This document shows, in pieces, positions 15,699 through 33,450 of a stretch of DNA of 34,224 bases. The notes beneath the pieces are model-generated. The model was not told where the DNA came from, did no database searches, and saw nothing but the letters and a program-made list of their open reading frames with translations. A program made the position numbers and the translations under genes. The number at the start of each line of letters is the position of its first letter. The first letter of the stretch is position 1. Source of the stretch: Verrucomicrobiota bacterium (lineage in GTDB: Bacteria > Verrucomicrobiota > Verrucomicrobiia > Limisphaerales > JACDHS01); assembly GCA_013820875.1 (NCBI GenBank), contig JACDHS010000051.1, positions 1 through 34,224 of the forward strand, written 5' to 3'.

Positions 15699-18600
15699 AT
15701 GTCTCTGAAACATCAGATGGGGTTGTTGTTCCGCAGTTTTTTATTCCTGTTTTTATTATTCCTGTTTGTTCCCAGGGCCAGCGCCATTGAAAGCGGGTGC
15801 AATCTTCTGAACATCGACGAAGCGGAGTATCTGCACCAGATATGGCGCGCCGAAGACGGCTTGCGCTCCCCCATGGTGAAGGCAATTTTGCAAAGCCGCT
15901 CCGGCTATTTGTGGTTCTGCACGGATGAGTCTTTTGTCCGTTTTGATGGTGTTCGCTTCCAGGAAATCGAAATCAAAACCACGGCTGAAAGAACCGATCG
16001 ATGGTTCACTGGCCTCGCGGAAGCTCATGACGGGAGCATTTGGGCTTCCAGTCTGAACGGCGGAGTCGTCCGCTTTCAAGGAGACACCCTCTCCCACTAC
16101 GATATGTCGCACGGACTGCTCACCAACTATGTCCTTTCCATCTTTCACGACAGCAAAAGCAATCTTTGGGTGGGAACCGCACTTGGCCTGAATCGTTTCG
16201 AGAACGGACGTTTTATCAGCTATACCAATGAACCCGGTTTAGTAGTGGAAGCCGTTCGAGCCATCACCGAAGACAGCAAGGGCAATCTCTGGATCGGAAC
16301 CGCCAAAGGTTTGGTCGCGATGCGCGACGGTCTCTTCCAAACATTCACCACGGACGACCTCCTTATTTTTGACGGGGTACTGAGCCTGTTCGAAGATCGC
16401 CAGGGGCGGTTATGGGTCGGAACAACTGTTGGACTCACTTGCCTGGTGGATGGCAGACCCATGCATTACACGACTGACGAGGGGCTGGCGCACAACACCA
16501 TTCGCGCCATTTTCCAGGATCGTTTCGGTAATATTTGGATCGGTTCCCAGGGTGGTCTGCAAAAATACAATAATGGAATCTTTTCAATTGTGCGGGTCGC
16601 TGACAGTACATCGGTAGATTTCGACGGTATCTCTTTCGTCTATGCGTTGAATGAAGATCATGAGGGAAATCTGTGGGTCGGAAACAACCTGGGATTGAAT
16701 CGTCTCAAAATTCAAAAGATCAAAACACTGACTAAGAACGACGGGCTGCCCCACAATCTTATCACTTCTGTTTTAGAAGATCGCGACCATAACTTGTGGA
16801 TCGCCACCTACGGTGGCGGTTTATCCCGATTGGCCAGCGGCCGGATCACCGTCTTTACGACAGATCACGGTTTACCGAACAATCACCTCCTTGGGCTTTG
16901 GCAGACTAAAGATGGCGCGATCTGGGTTGGCTCAGACCAAAAAGGCGTTACGCGAATTAAAGACGGTGTGTTTACGACCTATACAGACGGGAACACAAAG
17001 GAAAGGCCGTCGGAAAATACAGTTCGGGCGATTTTCGAAGATAGCGAAGGCACCCTCTGGCTCGGTCGCAATTCCGGCATGGTCCGCCTGCACAACGGTC
17101 AGATTATAGACTCGCCATTATATCCGGACGGTAACATTAAAAAGATAATCGAAGCCCGCGACGGAACGTTGTGGATTGCCTCCACTCAGGGGTTGACCTC
17201 GCTGCGCAAGAATCAAAGCGTCCTCTACACACGGAAAAATGGACTGCCGAGCGATCTTATTAATACCGTTTTCGAAGATTCCGAAGGCTACTTGTGGGTC
17301 GCAACCGAGAGCGGCGGCATTCATCGCAAAACGAATCAAGGATTTTCCCCTTCTCCACCTTCCCTTACAGAGCGCATTTTGCACATCACGGAGGATCAAT
17401 CAGGCAATTTGTGGCTCTCCACTCGTAACGGGATCTTTACCCTCAGCAAGAAACAGCTAAACTCCTTTGTGTCCGGCGAACAGGCCTCTGTGGAGGTGGT
17501 CTCCTACGGAAGACGCGATGGAATGAAACGCGCTCAATGCAATGGCATTGCTAATCCGGCTGGCTGGAACACGCATGATGGCCGGATCTGGTTCCCTACC
17601 ATGTATGGATTGGTGGTGTTCGATCCGAAAACCATTTTTAACAACGATGCCCCCCCTCCGCTGCTGATGCAGGACATCTCTGTCGATGGCAAACCGTTTC
17701 CGGTGCAGTCCGAATTCCACTTACCACCTGGCGAAGGCCAAATCGAATTTCACTACGCGGCCCTCAGTTTCCAGGCGATGGAACGCGTTTATTATCAATA
17801 TATTTTGGAAGGATTCGAGACCAACTGGGTGGATGCCGGCAGCCGCCGTATCGCCCGCTACACCAACCTGCGCCCGGGCCAATATCGTTTCCGTGTCAAA
17901 GCCAGCAACAATGACGGTGTTTGGAACGAGGCTGCCTTGACGACGACATTTTCTCTCGCGCCGCATTTTTATCAGACAAAAGGATTCTACGCGGCGTGCG
18001 TGCTGGCCACGGTACTTTTCGGGATGGGCATTAATGCAATCCGCATCAGGCAAATGCAACGTCGGGAGTTGCAGCTAAGCCAACTTGTGGAACACCGTAC
18101 TGCCAAACTGGAAGAAGCCCTCCGCTCCATGGAACGTTTCAACTACAGCATCGCGCACGACCTGCGCGCACCCCTCCGGGCTGTTCGCGGGTTCACCCAG
18201 GCTATCTGCGAAGATTACAACCAGGCCTTCGATGCCACTGGAAAAGAATATTGCAAACGTATCGAAGGCTCCATCGAACGAATGGACCAGTTGATTGACG
18301 ATCTCCTGACCTACGGGCGACTGACGCACACCGAGATTCATCTCGGATGGGTGGACTCAGAATCGGTCTTCAGGAAAGTGATCTGCGATTTCCAATGCAT
18401 CATCCAGGAAAAGAACGCCAGGATCGATGCGTCACTCCCGCTGCCGAAAGTTTGGGCCAACAGCACTTTGCTTGAACAAATTTTCAGCAATCTTATTGGC
18501 AACGCATTGAAGTTTGTTTCCCCGAATGAATCGCCAGAGCTTAAAGTCTGGGCGGAGAGCAAACCACACGGCACCCGCATCTATGTGAAAGATAATGGCA

Positions 18601-18806
18601 TCGGCGTCGCCTCTGAACATCAGGAACGCATCTTCCGGGTATTCGAAAGATTGCACCGCAACGAGGCTTATCCTGGGACCGGCATTGGTCTGGCCATTGT
18701 CGAAAAAGCAGCCGAACGGATGGAGGGCCGGGTGGGCGTAATTTCTGAACTGGGCAAGGGCAGTTGCTTCTGGATTGATCTTCCCAGACCACAAAAGAAT
18801 CATTAG
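15699..18806 (+). CDS. Membrane sensor histidine kinase with double beta-propeller and Y_Y_Y domain
   Basis: The 1035-residue protein has a signal peptide (1-28, ending PRASA). About a dozen or more two-component-regulator propeller repeats follow, of the form EDxxGNLWIGTxxGL, over about residues 50-660. That is enough for two seven-bladed propellers. A Y_Y_Y domain (about 680-755) and one membrane helix (about 762-781) lead to the cytoplasmic kinase. The phospho-acceptor H820 lies in SIAHDLRAPLRAV. The ATPase domain shows LEQIFSNLIGNALKF, VKDNGIGV and GTGIGLAIVEKAA. No receiver or DNA-binding domain is attached and no response regulator is adjacent, so its partner is elsewhere. In Bacteroidota such sensors often detect polysaccharides; the ligand here is unknown. 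Confidence 0.92.
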   Translation: MSLKHQMGLLFRSFLFLFLLFLFVPRASAIESGCNLLNIDEAEYLHQIWRAEDGLRSPMVKAILQSRSGYLWFCTDESFVRFDGVRFQEIEIKTTAERTDRWFTGLAEAHDGSIWASSLNGGVVRFQGDTLSHYDMSHGLLTNYVLSIFHDSKSNLWVGTALGLNRFENGRFISYTNEPGLVVEAVRAITEDSKGNLWIGTAKGLVAMRDGLFQTFTTDDLLIFDGVLSLFEDRQGRLWVGTTVGLTCLVDGRPMHYTTDEGLAHNTIRAIFQDRFGNIWIGSQGGLQKYNNGIFSIVRVADSTSVDFDGISFVYALNEDHEGNLWVGNNLGLNRLKIQKIKTLTKNDGLPHNLITSVLEDRDHNLWIATYGGGLSRLASGRITVFTTDHGLPNNHLLGLWQTKDGAIWVGSDQKGVTRIKDGVFTTYTDGNTKERPSENTVRAIFEDSEGTLWLGRNSGMVRLHNGQIIDSPLYPDGNIKKIIEARDGTLWIASTQGLTSLRKNQSVLYTRKNGLPSDLINTVFEDSEGYLWVATESGGIHRKTNQGFSPSPPSLTERILHITEDQSGNLWLSTRNGIFTLSKKQLNSFVSGEQASVEVVSYGRRDGMKRAQCNGIANPAGWNTHDGRIWFPTMYGLVVFDPKTIFNNDAPPPLLMQDISVDGKPFPVQSEFHLPPGEGQIEFHYAALSFQAMERVYYQYILEGFETNWVDAGSRRIARYTNLRPGQYRFRVKASNNDGVWNEAALTTTFSLAPHFYQTKGFYAACVLATVLFGMGINAIRIRQMQRRELQLSQLVEHRTAKLEEALRSMERFNYSIAHDLRAPLRAVRGFTQAICEDYNQAFDATGKEYCKRIEGSIERMDQLIDDLLTYGRLTHTEIHLGWVDSESVFRKVICDFQCIIQEKNARIDASLPLPKVWANSTLLEQIFSNLIGNALKFVSPNESPELKVWAESKPHGTRIYVKDNGIGVASEHQERIFRVFERLHRNEAYPGTGIGLAIVEKAAERMEGRVGVISELGKGSCFWIDLPRPQKNH

Positions 18807-22515: not shown

Positions 22516-23139
22516 TTATTCGGTCTCAGGAATCTTGAGCAACTCCTCGGCAGTCCAGGGTTGAGTTCGGCTATCCATCGTTGGCCGATGAGCCTTAACC
22601 TGTTCGACAGTAACTGCAGATGCATTGTTTCCCCAAGCTGCGTTACCTCGAATATAAGTTAATACAGCCGCCAAATCCTCATCCGAAAGACCTAGCTGTT
22701 GTCCCATGGCTAACATCGCTAAATTCCATTCTGTGCCTTTTACCGTAATCGGCCCTGTCAAACCATTGTACGCGATGAGCAATGCTCGTCCAGGCCCCGG
22801 CGTTAACACCCATTCGGAACCGGCCACTGGCGGGGCAACACCTGGACTGCCCAAACCGCTAGGTTGATGACAACCAGCACATGCGAGCGCATAAATCTTT
22901 TCACCGCGCTCGAACACGTCATCACCCGATTTCTTGGGGTGAAGCTTCGCTACTTCTTTCACCGATTTGAAAGGAGCATATACCTCTTTTCTAAAACCAC
23001 CGCCGTATTGATCAATGTGCAGGGCGCCCCAGTAGAGCAGCAATGCGAGCACGACGAAAATGAAAACGGGAGCAGCCGTCTGCGAAGCTTTTGGCTCCGA
23101 TTCATCATTGCGAACAGATTTCTTGGCGTCCGACTTCAT
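22516..23139 (-). CDS. Membrane-anchored monoheme cytochrome c
   Basis: The 207-residue protein has an N-terminal anchor (about 24-42) and a periplasmic cytochrome c domain. One heme site is seen, C87-A-G-C90-H91 in ALACAGCHQPSGLG. The likely axial methionine lies in LAMLAMGQQLGLSDEDLAAVLTYIR (M142 or M145). In position it takes the place of CcoP of a cbb3 oxidase, but CcoP carries two hemes and this protein only one. It could carry electrons between the ACIII cytochromes and a terminal oxidase. Its ATG overlaps the CcoO-like stop by 4 bp, and it is the last gene before the operon terminator. Confidence 0.88.
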   Translation of the reverse strand: MKSDAKKSVRNDESEPKASQTAAPVFIFVVLALLLYWGALHIDQYGGGFRKEVYAPFKSVKEVAKLHPKKSGDDVFERGEKIYALACAGCHQPSGLGSPGVAPPVAGSEWVLTPGPGRALLIAYNGLTGPITVKGTEWNLAMLAMGQQLGLSDEDLAAVLTYIRGNAAWGNNASAVTVEQVKAHRPTMDSRTQPWTAEELLKIPETE

Positions 23140-23822
23140 TTCTCTGGAGAATTGGTGTTGGTTGGCGTCGCAGCTTCCGCAGAAGCGGGTGCGGCGTTCG
23201 TGTCATCCGTTTCAGGCACTGTAGGTAAAGGAGATTCGAACAAAGAAGCGTCCGAACGAAGGCTTTTCATGTAAGCTACCAAAGAATCGGCGCGGTCGGT
23301 CGGAACTACTTCAAACCCCTCCTCAACTTCAAAGCCCTTTGGCAAATCCAAAGCATTGGCAGAGCGTTCCCCCCGGATTTTTCGTTTTTCGAAAAGGTAT
23401 TTATATTGTGGCATTAACGACTTCTCTATCGTGATCCGTGGATTGTAGAGATGCAGCAGATGCCATTTCGCATCCGGCATACGAGCGCCAATGTTGGCCA
23501 GATCAGGCCCGAGTCGGAGCGATCCAAATTGGACCGGTTCATCGCGGAGATAATCCTGGGCAACTGTGAAGCGGAGACCGTATTGAGGCACATCCTGAGG
23601 GCGCACTTGTTGCGTATGACAGGCGGCGCAACCTTCTGCGCGATAAACTTGCCTGCCTTGCTCAGCCAAACCCGAGTGCGGCGTAGGATATAGTGCCTCT
23701 GCATCGAAAGGTTTCGCGAGTTCCTGATGACCAAGCTGCTTCTGTGGGAGAAAAACCATTCCCGCCCATGACAGGGCAAAGCTGAGGAAGATTCCGAGGA
23801 AAAGAATCGGGCCGTAGTTCAC
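23136..23822 (-). CDS. CcoO-like cytochrome c subunit (cbb3 oxidase subunit II homologue)
   Basis: The 228-residue protein has one N-terminal membrane helix (about 4-24) and a periplasmic heme c domain. The CcoO hallmark GCAACHTQQVRPQDVPQYG includes C65, C68 and H69. SLRLGPDLANIGARM and ESLMPQY-like SLMPQYKYL follow, and M137 is the probable second heme ligand. All heme c determinants therefore look intact. This contrasts with the neighbouring CcoN-like protein, which has lost its cofactor ligands. The tail after about 185 is acidic, proline- and alanine-rich and probably disordered. It overlaps both neighbours by 4 bp, so its stoichiometric production with them is likely. Confidence 0.88.
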   Translation of the reverse strand: MNYGPILFLGIFLSFALSWAGMVFLPQKQLGHQELAKPFDAEALYPTPHSGLAEQGRQVYRAEGCAACHTQQVRPQDVPQYGLRFTVAQDYLRDEPVQFGSLRLGPDLANIGARMPDAKWHLLHLYNPRITIEKSLMPQYKYLFEKRKIRGERSANALDLPKGFEVEEGFEVVPTDRADSLVAYMKSLRSDASLFESPLPTVPETDDTNAAPASAEAATPTNTNSPEK

Positions 23823-25267
23823 TTGCGAGCCTCCTTTCCGCTACCGCAGCAAGCGGTGCAGCAACGTCGAATAACAGAAACGAGATTACTCAAAAACAAA
23901 AGGTGCGCTATCAGCAACAGAAGGAAGCCAATCGTGCCGATTCCGATAAACGGCACAGCAACACGAACAGATTTCATAAAATCAGAAAGCGGGTTGTTCC
24001 ATGAAGTACCTTGCAATATTCCGCCCACCCCCCAGGCAAAAACGATGAGAACCAATCCCGCGACAGAAAAGAGAAAATGACCTTTAACACGACCAAAGAT
24101 CCATTCAGTTCCTGCAATTCGCGGAACGATAAAATAGATCGCTCCGAATATCGCCATCGCTACCACGCCATAAGTGGCCAATTGCGCTATCGCCAGTCCG
24201 AAGAGTGTAAATTCCACCACCTGCGCCACCGGCGGCAAAAAATTGGCCGCGAATGCGAGTGCCCAAAGGATAAAAGCAAAAGCAGCAAACGAGATGAATT
24301 TGAATGCAACGCCTCCCTCTTGTTTCGCGGGGCTTTTGATCCATGTTGCGCGCCAATTGATAAACATCGCAACCGCTGGCACCAGCAGTAAAACGCTGGC
24401 AACCGTGCTTACACTCGGCATCCACGCCGGCAAACGTGCCCCGACCGGAATCCCGGACCAGCCAGCCGTCAGCAGCCATGACCAAAAACTGATCACTGCA
24501 AGGTAATGATTGTTCAGGAGTTGGTTGGAAACTTTTGGCACCATATAGAAAATAATCCCCAAAGCCAGCGGCATCAGCCACAGGAGCAGGAAACCATTCG
24601 CGAACCAATAAGCAATAGCCGCCTGCGTGGCACCGCGCACCGGAGAAACCAGCAGCAGCAGTCCTGCAGTGGAAAGCAACCAGGGAAAAATAAAGAATGC
24701 CGCCAGAATGAACCATTGAGAGACATAGGTATGCCGTTCATTACGATAGGCGAACGTCAACAGTCCGACAATTCCCATGATAAGATACGCGACGAACAAA
24801 ACAGCGACCGCATACTGCGGAAACTCAAACCATTCGTAACCCGTGCTCTGTCCAGTGAAAATCCCAAAGACACCGAGGAGAACGCCCAAATTCCAGAACA
24901 CCGCTCCAACGATCAGAGTGACTCCTGAAACCAGAGCAACTTTCCCCAACCGGCACAATATCCAGATGGCCGCAGCGATTCCCGCTTGTGAAAGGAAACC
25001 ATACAGGAACATATCCACCGCTGCGGGACGGACACGTCCGTAGGTGAGCCAGTCCACATTGGCCAGCATCCCAGCCGCGTGCATTTTGACGGAACCGAGC
25101 ACCGCGAACAGCGAACTCAGGGCCAGCCAAAGCAATGCGGCAGTGAAAAGAAACATCAACGCTCCACGACAAGAGGCGTCAATTTTTTCCACTGTTGGAA
25201 AAGCTGGATCGCGGTCGCCAGCGGCACCCGACGCAGGTTGATTAGGTGAAGAAGAAGAACGCATCAT
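23819..25267 (-). CDS. CcoN-like heme-copper oxidase subunit I homologue lacking all cofactor ligands
   Basis: The 482-residue protein has about 12 membrane helices and follows CcoN closely: YGRVRP, GYEWFEFP, the YMVPK helix end, ISFWSWL and AIYFIVPRIAG. Aligned by eye with Pseudomonas stutzeri CcoN, each key residue is replaced. The low-spin heme ligands H60 and H347 become A83 and Q362. The CuB ligands H207, H257 and H258 become N224, P274 and V275. The catalytic Y251 becomes A268, and the heme b3 ligand H345 becomes I360. The only histidines left (63, 179, 254, 397, 455) are outside these sites. It cannot reduce oxygen in the known way. The C-terminus has a cysteine cluster (RRCCTACCGSG). 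Its start overlaps the upstream gene by 4 bp; ATG at 25264 is an alternative. Confidence 0.88.
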   Translation of the reverse strand: MMRSSSSPNQPASGAAGDRDPAFPTVEKIDASCRGALMFLFTAALLWLALSSLFAVLGSVKMHAAGMLANVDWLTYGRVRPAAVDMFLYGFLSQAGIAAAIWILCRLGKVALVSGVTLIVGAVFWNLGVLLGVFGIFTGQSTGYEWFEFPQYAVAVLFVAYLIMGIVGLLTFAYRNERHTYVSQWFILAAFFIFPWLLSTAGLLLLVSPVRGATQAAIAYWFANGFLLLWLMPLALGIIFYMVPKVSNQLLNNHYLAVISFWSWLLTAGWSGIPVGARLPAWMPSVSTVASVLLLVPAVAMFINWRATWIKSPAKQEGGVAFKFISFAAFAFILWALAFAANFLPPVAQVVEFTLFGLAIAQLATYGVVAMAIFGAIYFIVPRIAGTEWIFGRVKGHFLFSVAGLVLIVFAWGVGGILQGTSWNNPLSDFMKSVRVAVPFIGIGTIGFLLLLIAHLLFLSNLVSVIRRCCTACCGSGKEARK

Positions 25268-25641
25268 TCGAATTCGCTCGGTTGTTCTGGAGCTTTGGGC
25301 GGCACTGCGGTGGCTTTGTCCAAGCGAGCCAACAGATCGGCACGGGCCGCCTTTGGATCCTTCGCCTTTTGAATAGTCACTTGCATCGCAAGGTCAACCG
25401 GCAGTCGAACCAGGTTCTTGCTTTGATCCTGCCATCCGATGTTGTTCAAAATTTCTGTATCAGCCAATTTCAGGTCCGCTGCAGCTTTGCGGCGTTCAAC
25501 AGAACGATCGGCGCCAATTGGTGCCGGTTTCGTGCTTAACATGAGCCACGCGAGCCAGCCGATGATTAAAAATGTGCCGAGAATTGCGACGGTATAAATC
25601 GCACCGCTCACAGAAGAAGGTTTTTTGTTCGAATCGCTCAT
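25264..25641 (-). CDS. Membrane-anchored periplasmic protein of unknown function
   Basis: The 125-residue protein has a polar N-terminus and one membrane helix (about 13-36, IYTVAILGTFLIIGWLAWLML). A charged periplasmic domain follows with NLVRLPVDLAMQVTIQKAKDP. The RLPVDLAM stretch resembles a short motif I associate with small subunits encoded beside cytochrome oxidases and ACIII, but I cannot name the family. It has no cysteine or heme motif. The ATG at 25641 overlaps the actF stop (TAATG) and its TGA overlaps the CcoN-like start (ATGA). It therefore sits exactly between the ACIII genes and the oxidase-like genes, and could be a structural bridge. That is inference from position. Confidence 0.8.
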   Translation of the reverse strand: MSDSNKKPSSVSGAIYTVAILGTFLIIGWLAWLMLSTKPAPIGADRSVERRKAAADLKLADTEILNNIGWQDQSKNLVRLPVDLAMQVTIQKAKDPKAARADLLARLDKATAVPPKAPEQPSEFE

Positions 25642-26894
25642 TATTTGCCTTCGTATTGAGCTACTACGTAAGTGGTCGCTCCTGGTAGTTGGTGAATGCC
25701 CAGTGCTTCACCCAACCGCGGATCCTTGATCGGATACGCAGGATGACTGAGAAAATGCTTGATCCAGACCACTGCCAAAACGCTGCCAATGAAAGCCATA
25801 CAAGCAAAGACCATTATAATGGACAGCGGTGCCTGGTCATATCCGTCGGGGAGGAGGACTGGCATGATGTTGTAGGAGATATCGCAGAAATGCATGAGCC
25901 ATGCCCAGATCGCCAGCGGAACTATCACTGTGCCACTGAGTTTCGCATCAATTCGAAGCAGCGCAAGAAACGGAAGAAAGAAGTGACCAAAGATCAGCAG
26001 CATACCGAACTGCCACCAGGTTCCCTGTTCACGTTTGATGTACCAGAAGGTTTCTTCCGGGATATTCGCATTCCAAATAATAAAATACTGGGAGAAATGG
26101 ATGTAAGCGTAGAAGACGGTGAATGCGAACATGAGCACACCGAGATCATGCCCCTGTCGGTTCGTAATCACTTTGCTCAAGTGGCCGGTGCGCTTCAAAA
26201 CCAGGGCCAGGAAGTAAACCGTCGCCAATGTAAACCAAACAGATTCCGCAAAGAAATAAACACCATACATCGTGGAGAACCATTGATGCTCCAATGACTT
26301 TACCCAGAGCATAATCGCCATGGTCACAGAAATGGCGAACAGGAACATCCCCCAGCAGGAATGAAAACGCATTTTGTAGGTGCATTGAGCCGACCCTGTT
26401 TCGTCCTGGCGCAGTGACCATGCTCGCAGCTTGCGAGTGAGCAACCACCAGACCAGGAAAATTCCACCGGATATTATATACCACGCTGGTTTATTAAGCA
26501 GGGCATGTTTTGCATGTAACGCATGGTCCGTATTCGGATCCATCGTCATCCACGGATAAATCGTCGGTGCCATGATCGCGATCGGGATGAACAGGATCGC
26601 CATGGTGGGAAAGAGCAAAACGGACAGATGCTCGGCAACACGGCGGATCGGAACAGACCAGGCGGCATCGAATAAATGATGGATTAATACCAGGAACAAT
26701 CCACCCACGCAGATGCTCAGGAAATAAATGTAAGCCGTGAGATAGGTGAAGCCAAACTGTTTCGGGTCAAGCATCGCGCCAATCAGGGCAATGACCAGCC
26801 CAATGCCTCCGACGATATATGGCACCTTCTTCCAACTGGACAAATCCAGCCGGGAATCGGCGCCGGGACCAACAGTTGTCGAGTGAGAACTCAT
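25641..26894 (-). CDS. actF: Alternative Complex III membrane subunit ActF
   Basis: The 417-residue integral membrane protein has about ten helices and belongs to the NrfD/PsrC-like group, as does ActC. Recognisable stretches are VLIHHLFDAAWSVPIRR, FIPIAIMAPTIYPWM, HALLNKPAWYIISGG and FYAYIHFSQYFIIWNANIPEETFWY, all typical of ActF of quinol:cytochrome c oxidoreductases. ActF packs against ActC in the membrane arm of ACIII and is proposed to take part in proton handling. A longer frame to 27020 is open, but it overlaps actE; MSSHSTTVGPG at 26894 leaves a 5-bp gap after actE. Assignment rests on sequence and operon position. Confidence 0.92.
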   Translation of the reverse strand: MSSHSTTVGPGADSRLDLSSWKKVPYIVGGIGLVIALIGAMLDPKQFGFTYLTAYIYFLSICVGGLFLVLIHHLFDAAWSVPIRRVAEHLSVLLFPTMAILFIPIAIMAPTIYPWMTMDPNTDHALHAKHALLNKPAWYIISGGIFLVWWLLTRKLRAWSLRQDETGSAQCTYKMRFHSCWGMFLFAISVTMAIMLWVKSLEHQWFSTMYGVYFFAESVWFTLATVYFLALVLKRTGHLSKVITNRQGHDLGVLMFAFTVFYAYIHFSQYFIIWNANIPEETFWYIKREQGTWWQFGMLLIFGHFFLPFLALLRIDAKLSGTVIVPLAIWAWLMHFCDISYNIMPVLLPDGYDQAPLSIIMVFACMAFIGSVLAVVWIKHFLSHPAYPIKDPRLGEALGIHQLPGATTYVVAQYEGK

Positions 26895-26899
26895 AGAAA

Positions 26900-27571
26900 T
26901 TATTTCTGTGCTGGAGCTGCGCTCAGTCCGGGCAATTTCGCACGAAGATCTGCCGGAACATCTTCCGGCGCACCCAAACGCGCAAGTTGCAAGGCCCGAA
27001 CATACGAGACGATTGCCCAACGATCGTTAACATCAATCTTATCACCGTAAGAACCCATCAACCCTTTTCCATGGGTGATGATGTCGAACAATTCACCATC
27101 GGTTTGACGAACAATTCGTTGATCATGAAGATTAGCAACGATAGTCATGCCAAATTTGGTAGTAATACCTTTGCCATCACCGCTGGCACCGTGACACGGC
27201 AAGCAAGTGATCGCATAACGTTCCTGACCGCGCGCCATCAATTGCTCGGTTACCGCGACAGGGAGCGTCTCAACATAGTTGGTGCTGCCAGCCTGGCGCC
27301 CCGTATTGAAAGGATGATCTTGAAACGGATAGACTTCTTGTTCGCCCAGTTTGGTTCCTTTGGTATAGGCAATAGTGCCGGGAACCTGAGCACGTGAACT
27401 ACGATTGTCCGGGAAAAAATCGAATGTTGTTTGTGGACGCAGCTTCGGCTGGCGATCCATGTCGGGAAATATCTCGATGGGCGGTTTGCGCGATGTGCTG
27501 CCGCGAAAACCGGCAATCGCCACGACGGTCACACAAAGGAGGAGCCAGAATAAAAGAAAGTAACGCATCAT
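26900..27571 (-). CDS. actE: Alternative Complex III monoheme cytochrome c subunit ActE
   Basis: The 223-residue protein has a short hydrophobic N-terminus (about 4-21) that serves as export signal or anchor. A conserved entry region reads PIEIFPDMDRQPKLRPQ, with GTKLGEQ and FNTGRQAGSTNYVETLP further on. The heme site is C123-L-P-C126-H127 in YAITCLPCHGASGDGKG, with M172 in GKGLMGSYGDK as likely axial ligand. In ACIII, ActE receives electrons and passes them to external carriers or an oxidase. The start at 27571 overlaps the actD stop as ATGA; the next codon is also ATG (27568). Confidence 0.93.
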   Translation of the reverse strand: MMRYFLLFWLLLCVTVVAIAGFRGSTSRKPPIEIFPDMDRQPKLRPQTTFDFFPDNRSSRAQVPGTIAYTKGTKLGEQEVYPFQDHPFNTGRQAGSTNYVETLPVAVTEQLMARGQERYAITCLPCHGASGDGKGITTKFGMTIVANLHDQRIVRQTDGELFDIITHGKGLMGSYGDKIDVNDRWAIVSYVRALQLARLGAPEDVPADLRAKLPGLSAAPAQK

Positions 27572-28107
27572 TCCTCCACGAGTTCAATATGCTTGCTGCC
27601 GGCCAATTCCAGCAACCTGCGGATTTCCGCTTCCGAATATTTCGGATCAGTTGATTCGACGACGATGAAAAACTTATCGTGTGTCACTTTGGCAAACCGG
27701 GCGCTCTTGAACAACGGACTATACCAACGTGGCAAACGATTCAAGAACATCATGCCGAGGATCGCTCCGAAGGCGCCGAAGAGAATGGTCAACTCGTAAG
27801 CAGGCGGGAAAGCACCGAACGGACTGAACATCGGTTTACCACCGACAATGAGTGGATAATCGATCGCATTCATCCACCAGATCATCAGCATGCCAAGGCC
27901 GTAACCAGCAACACCCCCGACGAAGGCGAACCAGCCGACCTTGGAATTACCCAGGCCCATGGCGGCATCCATTCCGTGGATTGGAAACGGAGTGTAAACG
28001 TCCCAGCGAGTGAATCCTTTTCCATGGATCACTTCTGCTGCGTGCATAACGTCAGCCGGAGTATCAAACTCTGCCAACAAAGCGTAAGGTGTTTGTGTCT
28101 GGGCCAT
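27568..28107 (-). CDS. actD: Alternative Complex III subunit ActD (DUF3341)
   Basis: The 179-residue protein has a soluble N-terminal part (YALLAEFDTPADVMHAAEVIHGKGFTRWDVYTPFP, described here in pieces: YALLAEF, KGFTRWDVYTPFPIHGMD). Two membrane helices follow, at about 58-79 and 104-122. The end has a second soluble segment with HDKFFIVVESTDP. This is the DUF3341 pattern of ActD, which holds no cofactor and stabilises the membrane arm. Its ATG (28107) overlaps the actC stop by one base and its stop overlaps actE by 4 bp. Confidence 0.92.
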   Translation of the reverse strand: MAQTQTPYALLAEFDTPADVMHAAEVIHGKGFTRWDVYTPFPIHGMDAAMGLGNSKVGWFAFVGGVAGYGLGMLMIWWMNAIDYPLIVGGKPMFSPFGAFPPAYELTILFGAFGAILGMMFLNRLPRWYSPLFKSARFAKVTHDKFFIVVESTDPKYSEAEIRRLLELAGSKHIELVEE

Positions 28108-29525
28108 CAGTGATGTCCTCCTTTGGCACCACCGGCGGGGTGATGCGGGTCAGCTTGCGGTGTGACTGCTTTTACTTCCGAGATTGCGATCATCGGCAGG
28201 AAACGCAGGAACAACAGGAACAAGGTAAAGAACATTCCGAACGTTCCAAGATAGGTCAGGATATCCACCGGGGTTGGGATGAAATAACCCCAACTCGATG
28301 GCAGATAATCGCGGTGAAGCGAGATCACGATGATCACGAAACGTTCGAACCACATCCCGATATTCACCAGAATCGAGGCGATAAATACGATGGCCAAATT
28401 GTTGCGGAACCGTTTGAACCAGAAAATCTGGGGCACGATGGTGTTACAGATGATCATCGCCCAATAACCCCAGGCATAAGGCCCAATCGCACGGTTGATG
28501 AACGCGAAACGTTCGTATTCGCTGCCGCTATACCAGGCGATGAAAAATTCCATCCCGTAGGCATAAGCAACGATTGAACCGGTCGCCAGCGTCACTTTGC
28601 ACATCAAATCGATGTGACGCATCGTGATGATATCCTCCAGTTTTAACATCTGGCGCAACGGCACCAGCAGCGTCAGCACCATGCCGAATCCAGAGAAAAT
28701 AGCGCCAGCCACGAAGTAGGGCGGGAAAATCGTCGTGTGCCATCCAGGGACTTGCGACACCGCGAAGTCCAATGAAACGATGGAATGCACCGACAACACC
28801 AGCGGGGTCGAAAGCCCGGCCAGGATCAAATACGCTTTTTCGTAATTGCTCCAGTGACGATTCGATCCAGTCCAGCCGAGTGCGAACAATCCATAAGCGA
28901 ACTTGCGAATCTTCGTCCTGGCACGATCGCGCATGACAGCAAGGTCAGGAACCAGGCCTACATACCAGAACAACGCGGACACAGTAAAATAAGTCGAGAC
29001 AGCGAACACGTCCCACATCAGCGGCGAACGGAACTGTGGCCAGATGGCATTCGCGGTCGGAATCGGGAATAACCACCAGTCGAACCAAACACGACCGACG
29101 TGCAATGCCGGATAAATACCGGCGCACATAACGGCGAAGATGGTCATCGCTTCAGCGGCGCGGTTCACCGCGGTGCGCCAGCGTTGGCGCAAGAGACACA
29201 AAATTGCGGAGATCAACGTTCCGGCGTGGCCGATACCGATCCACCAGACGAAGTTGATGATGTCCCAACCCCACATCACCGGGTGTTGATTACCCCAGAC
29301 ACCGACACCGACCGAAATTTGGTAGAGCAACATGGCGCCCAAAACTGCGGCTCCAAGTGCACTCGGAATGAAAGCCATCCACCACCACATCGGCGTTTTG
29401 CCTTCGACAATTCCCGCCACCCGGTCGGAGATCCAACCGATGCTGCGGTTATTTGCGACCAACGGCTCGCGTTCCAACTCACGCGGAGGCGGGGCTACCT
29501 TAAGATCTGGAACTGTGCTGGCCAT
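28107..29525 (-). CDS. actC: Alternative Complex III quinol-oxidising membrane subunit ActC
   Basis: The 472-residue protein of the NrfD/PsrC family has about ten membrane helices. Marks include [67 protein letters not shown] and [21 protein letters not shown]. ActC is the proposed quinol-binding subunit and lies against the iron-sulfur subunit ActB. The N-terminus is about 45 residues of soluble sequence. The C-terminus ends in a His-rich tail ([14 protein letters not shown]) that could bind metal or be disordered. The start at 29525 overlaps the actB stop by one base. Assignment is firm from sequence and context. Confidence 0.94.
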
Positions 29526-32500
29526 TAGTGCGTTCCTTTCGTCTCGCCGTGCGCGGTATCCGGGCCGTGTTTTTCAAAAGGATTTTGGCCTTCTGAATGA
29601 TTGTTCTTCTGATACTCACCGATGGTGAACGGATGTTCGTAAGCGTCCGGCATACTGGGATTCGGATTACGGATTTTCGCCAGGTAGGTGAGGCGCGGTT
29701 TAGTGAGCAGGAATTCCAACACAGAATAATTCCGCGGTTCCTGTTTCAACTTCGCCACTTGACTTTCCGGATCGGAAATATCACCGAAAACAATCGCGTC
29801 CGCCGGGCAAGCCTGCTGACAAGCCACCTTGGGCATTGTGCCTTCACTTTCTTTCACGCGAACATCGCCGGAAGCACCTGCTTTGACCTTTTGCGCGATC
29901 TTGGCTTGCTGGAGGCGTTGCACGCAGAAGGTGCATTTCTCCATGACGCCACGCATACGAACCGTGACATCTGGATTCTTCGCCATCTTGTAAAGATCCC
30001 AGTCGTCGCCCGTGCGCCAGCCTTTATCCGGATCCTTCAGCCATTTGGTCATGCCCCATTCGCCATCCACCTTGTTAATCATCGGCGTTGGGTACCAGGG
30101 ACCTTTCAATTCCTTCAGCGTGCGCTTGTTGTAATCGAAGAAATTGAAGCGACGGACCTTATACGGGCAGTTGTTTGAGCAGTAACGGGTTCCGACGCAA
30201 CGGTTGTAAACCATGAGGTTTAAACCTTCTTCGTCATGAACAGTCGCGTTGACCGGGCAAACACTTTCGCAGGGAGCAGCTTCGCAGTGCTGGCAAAGCA
30301 TCGGTTGCGTGACCATCTGCGGATCTTCAACAGTGCCGGCAAAATAGCGATCCAAGCGCAGCCAATGCATTTCGCGACCGCGACCCACCTGGTCTTTGCC
30401 AACGATCGGAACATTGTTCTCGCTTTGGCAGGCAATCGCGCAGGAGTTACATCCAACGCAACTGGTCAAATCGATAACCATACCCCATTGATGCAACGCT
30501 TGATCTTTCCGGGCATCCAACGGGTTTGGATACATGGAACGCATCCCTCCAGGAGGCTCCTGCAGATCCAATGCTTTAACGAAATCAGCACGCTTCTCGT
30601 ATTGATCGAGTGTCGCTTCACGAATGATCGGGCGACCGCGCATCGAACCGTGATCCTGGGTGACGACCAGTAGGTGTGTCTTACCGGTATTGGTCAGTTT
30701 CGCACCCGAAGCGAAACGGCGCGCGTTCCCCGGCAACAGGCGGTAGGCATTGTAGCCTGTCCCCTGCCCGATGCGTCCCGTGTTTTCACGGCCATAACCA
30801 AGCGCCATCCCAACAATGTTGTCGGCCAATCCGGGTTGGATCCAGGCGGGACCTTCCACTTCACGGCCATTGAGGGAAATCTTCACCAACGGAACCTGCA
30901 GGTTCGCGTTCTCGTGATTGACGACATCAACACCGAGTTGCTTCGCCGTCGCGGGACTCAATAAAATAGCGTTATCCCAAACAATCTTAGTGATCGGATC
31001 CGGCAACTCCTGCAGCCAGCCGTTGTTGTTGTACCGACCGTCATCCACGCTGTAATCGCGGTGGAAAACCACTTCCAACTTGTCCTGGGTCGGCGCAGGC
31101 GAACTCACGCCCGCCAGTTCCCTGGAACCGTTTTTCAGGCTCAACTTGGCATTAACCGCTTTCGGAGCGCTGCCCTTCCACAAACCATCGTGCAGAAAAC
31201 GCTTCCAGTTTTCTTCAAAATCTCCGGAACCAGCAATGTCCTTAATCGTATCGCGAACAACATCGTAAGGACGTGCGCTGTCCAGACCGGCAATCCGCGC
31301 CAGAACTTCCAGCTCAGTGACACCACCGAACAACGGTTCGATCAGCGGCTGAATGGAAACAACCGTGCCATCGCCGGTGCGAGCGTCGCCCCAGCTTTCA
31401 AGATAGTGCGCGGCCGGAAAATGCCATGTGCTGCCTGCAAAAGATTCGTCTTCATAATAGCTAAGACGAACGACCGTCTTCGCCTTCGCCTGGGTCTTTG
31501 CCCAGTCAAGCTCAGCGGGCGCCGTGTAAACCGGGTTTACACCGGAAACAACCAGAGTATCCACCTGGCCAGCATTCAAAGCTGTGGCCAATTGATCGAT
31601 GGAACCGGATTTAACGACTTCTTTCTGCTCAATGAAAGTTAAGGTCGAACCAACACTGCCGAGTTGCTGATTAATCGCAAACGCCAGGAGATGCACTGCC
31701 AATGGCTGACCACTTCCAGCAACAACGAGACTTTTGCCTTTGTTCGCTGCCAAATCCCTGGCGCATTCAGCGATCCACTTTTCATCGCCGCCGTACTGAC
31801 CGGCGAGAGTCTGCACTTCAGAACTGCTTTCACCCCCAATAGCCGCCAACAACTTCGCCGCCACCGCAGCCACCTGGCTCGGAGCCACGCGCAAACGGTG
31901 ATCCGCGTTCTGGGCAGTCAACGAGAACAAGCCTTCAACCAGGTAAAGGCGGTTCATGTCGGTGTTGCCGTTACGCAACTTACGTCCACTGGCAAAACCG
32001 GCGATATTACGAAACGCGTCTTCTTCAGCGCCGACGAAATCGCAATCCAGCGAAACGATGCGGCTCGCTTTGTCGTAATGATAAACCGCTTTGACGGACT
32101 GACCGGCAGCGATAGAGGCCGCTTCATTCACCACGTTGAACTCAACCGGTTCATGAATAAACCATTGCGCTTTTGGAAATTTCTTCGAGATCAGGCTCTG
32201 CAACCGTTCGCGCGACGGCGAACTGCTGCGATCGAGCAGGAACGCCAAACCTGCGCCGCCATTGGCCGAAAACTGTTTGGAAATCTGGGTCAACGCTTCA
32301 AAAGCCGCCACGCGCGACGAGGCACTGCCGCTTTTCGCGAAACGCATCGCACGATCCGGATCATACAAATTTAGAATCGACGCCTGGGTATAACGATCCG
32401 AGCCGCCATTGCTGCCAGGGTGGTTGGGATTACCCTCCACCTTGATTGGCCGGCCTTCATGCGAACGGACCAGCAACGGAACCGCACTCCCACGAGTCGG

Positions 32501-32803
32501 ACGCGCCGTCGCGTAGAATTGCGGAAGACCGTGGATATAACCCTCAGGCTGTTTGCCAAACGGCAGAATATACTCTTCAGGCTTGCGGCAACCAGTCAGG
32601 CCAAGACCCGCCAACAAGAAGGAGGCGGACATGATCTTGACGAAATTACGGCGGGAAACCGGATCAGTGAACTCACTGGCCCCAGCAGGAAATTCGCGGT
32701 CCACCCATTCACGAAATTCGGGCGTCTCAGCCAGGTCATCCAGGCTGCGCCAATATTTCGGACCAACTTCAGGCTCTGTACAGGTGGGAGGAATGGTTTT
32801 CAT
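29525..32803 (-). CDS. actB: Alternative Complex III molybdopterin-like and iron-sulfur subunit ActB
   Basis: The 1092-residue protein fuses two units. The first 48 residues precede a Tat-type signal, [20 protein letters not shown] (50-69), ending in a lipobox with C72. A molybdopterin-oxidoreductase-like domain spans about 75-740; in characterised ACIII this domain has no molybdenum cofactor. The C-terminal ferredoxin-like domain starts at C782 ([11 protein letters not shown]), followed by [27 protein letters not shown] and CTFCVQR with CQQACPAD. One of these sets has T in place of a cysteine, consistent with a [3Fe-4S] cluster beside three [4Fe-4S] clusters. The start at 32803 overlaps the actA stop as ATGA, so the longer frame to 32845 is rejected. 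Confidence 0.95.
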
Positions 32804-33450
32804 CGATGACAAGCCGAGCAATTTTGCAGGGATTGCACGTTCCAATCGTGCACAAATTTTGTTCCCATCTTCTTCTGTTCTTCCGGAGAAATCTCCAGAT
32901 CAAGGTTATAAACATCTTTCGGATGACGGATGTGTTGCGCCGGATCACGATGGCAATCCAGGCAGAAGGACATCGTAAACGATTTCTCCTGGCGAACTTC
33001 ATCCATGTGATTCACCTTCCCATGACACTCCACGCAGCTCACACCGCGGTTCACATGGACAGCATGGTTGAAATAAACGTAATCAGGCACCTTATGAATC
33101 TGCACCCATGGCACCGGCTTCCCGGTTTTGGCACTATCCCGAATAAGTTCGAGACGCGAATCGTCCTTTAGCACCTGGTTATGACAATTCAAACAGGTGG
33201 TGGCACTTGGAATGTTCGAGAACCATGACTTTTCGACCGCATCATGGCAATAACGGCAATCGATCCCCAACTGGCCGGCATGAATTTCGTGGGAAAAAGG
33301 AACAGGTTGAATCGGCTGATACCCAACCCGTCCGTAAGCCGGGGTGAGATAATAGGTGATGCCAGCCGTCAAAGTTCCCGCTACAACGAGTGCACCAATG
33401 GCAATCTTAAGCGGAAGCCGGTTGGTCCATTTTGGAAAAATGTCTGACAT
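32800..33450 (-). CDS. actA: Alternative Complex III pentaheme cytochrome c subunit ActA
   Basis: The 216-residue protein has a membrane anchor (about 13-34) and a periplasmic domain with five CxxCH heme sites: CRYCH (65-69), CLNCH (86-90), CVECH (139-143), CLDCH (163-167) and CSACH (211-215). Further histidines (H54, H57, H129, H132, H148) are candidates for distal ligands. PVPFSHEIHAGQLGIDCRYCH is typical of the class. ActA receives electrons from the iron-sulfur clusters of ActB. It is the first gene of the ten-gene operon. No clear ribosome binding site precedes the ATG at 33450. Confidence 0.95.
   Translation of the reverse strand: MSDIFPKWTNRLPLKIAIGALVVAGTLTAGITYYLTPAYGRVGYQPIQPVPFSHEIHAGQLGIDCRYCHDAVEKSWFSNIPSATTCLNCHNQVLKDDSRLELIRDSAKTGKPVPWVQIHKVPDYVYFNHAVHVNRGVSCVECHGKVNHMDEVRQEKSFTMSFCLDCHRDPAQHIRHPKDVYNLDLEISPEEQKKMGTKFVHDWNVQSLQNCSACHR

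Follow-up and report, generated by a model that had tools for sequence, protein, structure and literature searches.

The 34,224-nucleotide stretch of verrucomicrobial DNA analysed here (contig JACDHS010000051.1 of assembly GCA_013820875.1; hereafter, the window) carries an ACIII operon in which a ccoN-like gene encodes a protein that, in its modelled structure, retains the cbb3 oxidase fold and, by alignment, has none of the cofactor ligands. We consider it reasonably probable that an ACIII-linked cbb3-type oxidase has here been reduced to an apo-CcoN scaffold for c-type hemes that pass ACIII electrons to another oxidase. More tentatively, many parallel events within a single phylum may have converted the catalytic subunit of a heme-copper oxidase into a membrane subunit that lacks cofactors and, as part of an ACIII supercomplex, carries a c-heme relay feeding other oxidases. 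A preliminary description had recognized the loss of the ligands in the window gene; what it missed were the ligated CcoN of the same operon, the likely parallel loss, and the methanotroph copies, whose gene cluster has been published under the name of a cbb3 oxidase.

The apo-CcoN gene occupies positions 23819..25267 on the minus strand, starts with ATG and encodes 482 aa. Its frame is intact, as previously described, and overlaps by 4 bp both orf125 (25264-25641) and the CcoO-like gene (23136-23822). The product matches PF00115 (E = 6.6e-27) and, over residues 69-462, CcoN of the Pseudomonas stutzeri cbb3 oxidase (3mk7; phmmer against the PDB, E = 1.3e-20), to which it is approximately 22% identical; its score against TIGR00780 (CcoN), 99 bits, lies below the curated cut-off of 583. 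An AlphaFold2 model (pLDDT 91.9, pTM 0.91) has its best structural matches in cbb3 CcoN (3mk7, Z 49.9, rmsd 1.7 Å over 442 residues; 8smr, Z 50.0), with NO reductase a poorer match (Z 43.8). Homology and predicted fold thus both place the protein with CcoN among the heme-copper oxidases.

Against this background, the replacement of every heme and copper ligand and of the cross-linked tyrosine, as first claimed from the window sequence, held up when the protein was aligned with P. stutzeri CcoN and close homologues. In P. stutzeri numbering, the low-spin heme b ligands H60 and H349 correspond to A83 and Q362, the heme b3 ligand H347 to I360, the CuB ligands H207 and H257 to N224 and P274, and the tyrosine Y251 to A268. 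These assignments were the same in a MAFFT alignment, which included the fully ligated CcoNO of the same genome (L003), and in an alignment to a profile made from ligand-keeping homologues, which the window protein matches with an E value of 3.5e-121. The soft point is the third CuB ligand, H258, which is V275 by MAFFT and a gap by the profile, with a two-residue deletion alongside. Misalignment was considered and rejected, since pairwise HMMER, MAFFT and the profile all show the ligands to be absent. The window CcoN itself would accordingly carry none of the oxidase cofactors, as far as can be judged from its residues.

The gene is the eighth of a minus-strand operon with the order actABCDEF-orf125-ccoN-ccoO-cytc, in a genome of 5.7 Mb that is 99% complete, and the respiratory setting assigned to it earlier proves to be that of ACIII. 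ActA (32800..33450) is a pentaheme cytochrome c with five CXXCH motifs, also present in its homologues (Cytochrome_C7, 2.1e-11; QrcA, 3.2e-25), and ActB (29525..32845), the true start of which is probably downstream of the listed TTG, combines molybdopterin-enzyme-like and FeS domains (QrcC, 5.9e-55; QrcB, 4e-18; Fer4_7, 4.3e-11). These are followed by ActC, the NrfD-like membrane subunit on the quinol side (28107..29525; PF03916, 5.4e-24), ActD (27568..28107; PF11821, 3.7e-63) and the monoheme cytochrome c ActE (26900..27571; PF13442, 1.8e-12, and operon position). ActF (25641..26900; start codon tentative) was recognized by neither the Pfam nor the NCBIfam search and is assigned by its position and length, its homologues being likewise placed in other genomes; ActA to ActE are assigned by family and position, and the order of the set is conserved across genomes. 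Between ActF and CcoN lies orf125 (25264..25641), a small protein of 125 aa with one hydrophobic segment discernible by eye and no family found in a Pfam search; it occupies this place nearly always, whether or not the neighbouring CcoN is ligated, and is possibly an accessory subunit of ACIII or of the cbb3 module. All of these genes are on the minus strand, as are the two cytochrome genes downstream of ccoN. The first encodes a CcoO-like monoheme cytochrome c (23136..23822; FixO, 3.5e-29), the partner expected of a cbb3 oxidase, with its CAACH heme motif and methionine ligand (SLMPQYK) intact. In CcoP's place stands a membrane-anchored cytochrome c of 207 aa (22516..23139; PF00034, 8.3e-11) with a single CXXCH, which is therefore not a diheme CcoP.

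Compared with the P. stutzeri cbb3 oxidase, the window module thus has in common the 12-helix fold, the CcoO partner with its c-type heme and the order of N, O and cytochrome c. It differs in that its CcoN is devoid of the ligands for heme b, heme b3 and CuB and of the tyrosine, and in that a monoheme cytochrome replaces the diheme CcoP.

Homologues of the window CcoN are widespread among Verrucomicrobiota, mostly in metagenome-assembled genomes (MAGs) of Limisphaerales and Pedosphaerales; many of the compared genomes are MAGs. They were found in 83 of the 97 genomes sampled from the order and family, mostly with 30-46% identity over nearly the full length, and 103 of the 388 genomes sampled from the phylum have a match. 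The phylum sample and a scan of bacterial genomes further added Opitutia, Chthoniobacterales and others, plus two Planctomycetes. MAG records titled Akkermansia muciniphila (L046, L057, L076, L091, L103 and L117) group here with Limisphaerales or Pedosphaerales, and their labels look wrong.

Among 241 aligned proteins, one of them an outgroup, all seven residues are kept in 91 ("keepers") and not in 150 ("losers"). Besides the window copy, 149 homologues are without the full set, and almost all of these lie in the same operon. Of the 150 losers, 66 retain none of the seven residues and another 66 retain one; apart from one doubtful protein, partial sets reach three of seven, and H60 is retained in 28. 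Fully ligated CcoN occurs in the same ACIII operon, and a further 81 homologues of this type have all six histidines and the tyrosine. Wherever the contig allows, keepers and losers alike have the ACIII genes upstream and CcoO and cytochrome c downstream. Because so many losers keep one residue or none while homologues of the same type keep all of them, the absence of ligands in the window CcoN is more than a matter of chance. One doubtful protein among the 150, L097 (323-1819), reads HHCSHHH at the seven positions; it is the only PF00115 match of a Chthoniobacter MAG and was set aside because of a possible sequence error. One genome appears to have both a ligated and a ligand-less CcoN of the ACIII type on different contigs (L045/L015 and L109/L156, MAG PMV_1.23).

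Close homologues that keep the ligands could have exposed the window copy as a recent product of decay. They do exist, but this is not how the window copy arose, and the early claim that the gene is maintained is borne out: frames are intact, dN/dS is well below 1 among homologues and the operon is conserved across the phylum. Close pairs of losers have dN/dS values of 0.05-0.22, compared to 0.03-0.13 for keepers; one higher loser value, 0.54, belongs to a pair that includes a gene split into two ORFs. The view that ccoN is a decaying pseudogene could appeal to the accelerated evolution of losers and to split frames in a few relatives, namely two related soil MAGs (L082 and L094) in which the ligand-less gene is broken into two ORFs through sequencing error or local decay. 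With frames intact in the great majority of some 150 losers and with selection and synteny as described, we regard this view as ruled out for practical purposes.

How often the ligands were lost depends on which part of the operon is examined. In the CcoN tree, 146 losers group together (SH-aLRT 96), and two to four changes between kept and lost states are needed. The tree of ACIII proteins (ActC+D+E+F, 1,244 columns), which is independent of the ligand sites, calls for at least 14 such changes, and that of CcoO and cytochrome c for at least nine. The latter two trees agree in placing L199 with keepers L084 and L093, L208 with keeper L209, L174, L181 and L187 with keepers, and L217 and L254 inside Chthoniobacterales. 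The CcoN tree carries long-branch warnings, and when loser groups were placed singly among the keepers, L199, L208, L225, L174, L252, L217 and L119 joined the keepers of their own relatives; the placement did not settle L256, L194, L263, L253 and the f64/f69 group. Because the single groups fall with their own relatives, we suspect long-branch attraction in the full CcoN tree, and the single origin of losers that it implies became doubtful. The same tree is the main argument for a different history, in which loss was confined to one or a few events and gene exchange then carried the ligand-less ccoN from operon to operon. Given the long-branch warnings and the match between most single-group placements and the two partner trees, we find this history quite unlikely. 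The interleaving of keepers and losers in the partner trees, together with the single-group placements, indicates instead that the ligands were probably lost repeatedly, on some nine or more occasions as reconstructed from these trees.

The cytochrome c partners have been retained alongside the ligand-less protein. The CcoO heme motif CXXCH is present in 39 of the 40 losers counted, together with the MP motif, and all 35 of the small cytochromes c counted in losers have one CXXCH. In one genome (G067; L281/L191, L281 1565-3793), apo-CcoN is even fused in frame to CcoO in a protein of 742 aa with the c-heme motif intact. Rates of evolution changed unevenly: relative to ActC, that of CcoN rises from 1.9 in keepers to 5.0 in losers (2.6-fold) and that of CcoO from 2.1 to 3.5 (1.7-fold), and ActF and the cytochrome show no increase.

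Within apo-CcoN itself, the best conserved loser columns (window numbering, commonest loser residue) are W47, P65, G77, G90, W125, N126, P150, W185, W221, F261, P278, P280, W282, G404 and G416. All columns with entropy below 0.4 are Trp, Gly, Pro, Phe or Asn, without an acidic or basic residue, and the only acidic residues kept in at least 60% of losers, D30 and E148, lie near the membrane edges. As judged from these alignments, the pattern is consistent with a structural role, and nothing in it suggests a proton path. We considered periplasmic conservation as proof of docking and dropped the idea, because the periplasmic face is no better conserved in losers than the helices (p = 0.73); the cytoplasmic loops are the only region less conserved in losers, with helix ends and loop sides assigned by hand from the secondary structure of the model.

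Two other readings of apo-CcoN have to be weighed against these data. In the first, the protein has acquired a new activity, for instance in conducting protons, ions or quinones, in assembly or in regulation, and is not a passive anchor. The faster evolution of ccoN than of the rest of the operon in losers implies that its constraint has changed, and a membrane protein with 12 helices could have functions beyond holding its partners; we nevertheless judge such an activity unlikely, given the makeup of the conserved columns, which disfavours a proton or quinone path, and the near-constant company of CcoO and cytochrome c. In the second, heme is still bound through other residues. Some losers do keep histidines, H60 among them, and H397 and H63 are the only common histidine columns in losers (79% and 71%); both are commoner still in keepers and so are not replacement ligands. 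With residues at the ligand sites varying freely and no substitute heme ligand seen among the histidine columns of losers, continued heme binding is very unlikely. Of the new roles raised in the preliminary description, a scaffold or docking subunit fits best, and a proton or quinone path is disfavoured by the conserved residues.

The scaffold reading can be formulated as a sequence of steps. An ACIII-linked cbb3-type oxidase operon, actABCDEF-orf-ccoN-ccoO-cytc, would have been ancestral in the group. In the window lineage and, independently, in several others, CcoN would have lost heme b, heme b3 and CuB, and reduction of O2 would no longer be possible. Apo-CcoN may then have been retained as a membrane anchor that keeps the c-type hemes of CcoO and of the small cytochrome c beside ACIII. 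Electrons would run from quinol through the FeS clusters of ActB, the hemes of ActA and ActE and those of CcoO and cytochrome c to another terminal oxidase. That apo-CcoN associates physically with ACIII and serves as a scaffold, and that electrons take this route, we infer from gene content and residue patterns.

Another oxidase that could serve as the acceptor is present in nearly all loser genomes. Besides the operon, the window genome encodes two aa3/caa3-like oxidases (L001 and L002) and the fully ligated CcoNO (L003) on other contigs, one of which is probably the terminal acceptor; this genome has no cytochrome bd match, and we found no aa3 gene adjacent to the operon. In several loser families, coxB, coxA and coxC (COX2, COX1 and COX3) lie immediately downstream of the operon. 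Another heme-copper oxidase match (E of 1e-52 or better) is present in 68 of 70 loser genomes; cytochrome bd is present in one of the remaining two (G067) and no more than an oxidase fragment in the other (G014), so that a ligand-less copy is never clearly the sole oxidase of its genome. No other heme-copper oxidase is present in seven of the 63 keeper genomes, among them G136 and G281, where the ACIII-linked CcoN is the sole PF00115 match at E ≤ 1e-52 and there is no cytochrome bd match. The excess of sole oxidases among keepers (7/63 versus 2/70) has the expected direction and is not significant (Fisher p = 0.084).

Supercomplexes of ACIII with aa3 or caa3 oxidases, with direct electron transfer, are known from Flavobacterium johnsoniae and Rhodothermus marinus (PMC8552683, PMC5928083). 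There, too, oxidase genes follow those of ACIII; the adjacent oxidase is catalytic, whereas the window operon, known from its sequence, places an apo-oxidase module beside ACIII.

ACIII already contains a comparable component in ActB, a subunit that is not known to carry a molybdenum cofactor. The B1 domain of ActB is homologous to the catalytic subunit of molybdoenzymes (PMC5928083). Like apo-CcoN, ActB is a redox-enzyme module without its active-site cofactor that is kept as structure in the same complex; it derives from another enzyme family, and the loss in CcoN differs in that it seems to be repeated, with ligated relatives surviving in the same operon. ACIII would thereby gain a further module originating from an enzyme that has lost its cofactors, and the repeated loss and retention beside ligated relatives would provide a natural series for comparing catalytic and structural parts of a supercomplex.

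The operon and protein family of the window are also those of the ACIII-adjacent "cbb3" of verrucomicrobial methanotrophs and Opitutaceae (PMC6688271, PMC8498564, PMC11102522). In methanotrophs, the cluster has been described as a cbb3-type oxidase (PMC6688271, PMC8498564) and linked to high oxygen affinity (PMC6688271), and in M. caldifontis IT6 a cbb3 and an aa3 oxidase are reported to adjoin ACIII (PMC11102522). In Methylacidiphilum strains Kam1 (G287) and SolV (G177), the seven residues of the ACIII-adjacent ccoN are SESSHFV, and neither genome yielded a ccoN match at or above the curated cut-off; their pmoA-family matches, four in Kam1 and three in SolV, equal the published values (PMC6688271). 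The loss of ligands makes a catalytic role of this ccoN unlikely in the two strains. Since protein and cytochrome c partners are retained despite ligand loss, genes that annotation presents as functional oxidases probably encode structural components, and "cbb3" genes of methanotrophs and their relatives that seem unable to bind oxidase cofactors in the usual way would call for a rereading of oxygen affinity and respiratory chains. We found no prior report of ligand loss in CcoN in the searchable open-access literature.

Two further observations concern other genes of the window genome. On contig C205 (L004 and L006), a COX1 resembling NO reductases and oxidases, with a CuA-type partner, adjoins a second, weaker COX1 relative, which keeps some histidines and is possibly a second reduced paralogue. 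Within the window and unrelated to the operon, positions 15699-18806 encode a protein of 1035 aa in which propeller-like motifs are repeated and one end resembles a histidine kinase, as judged by eye.
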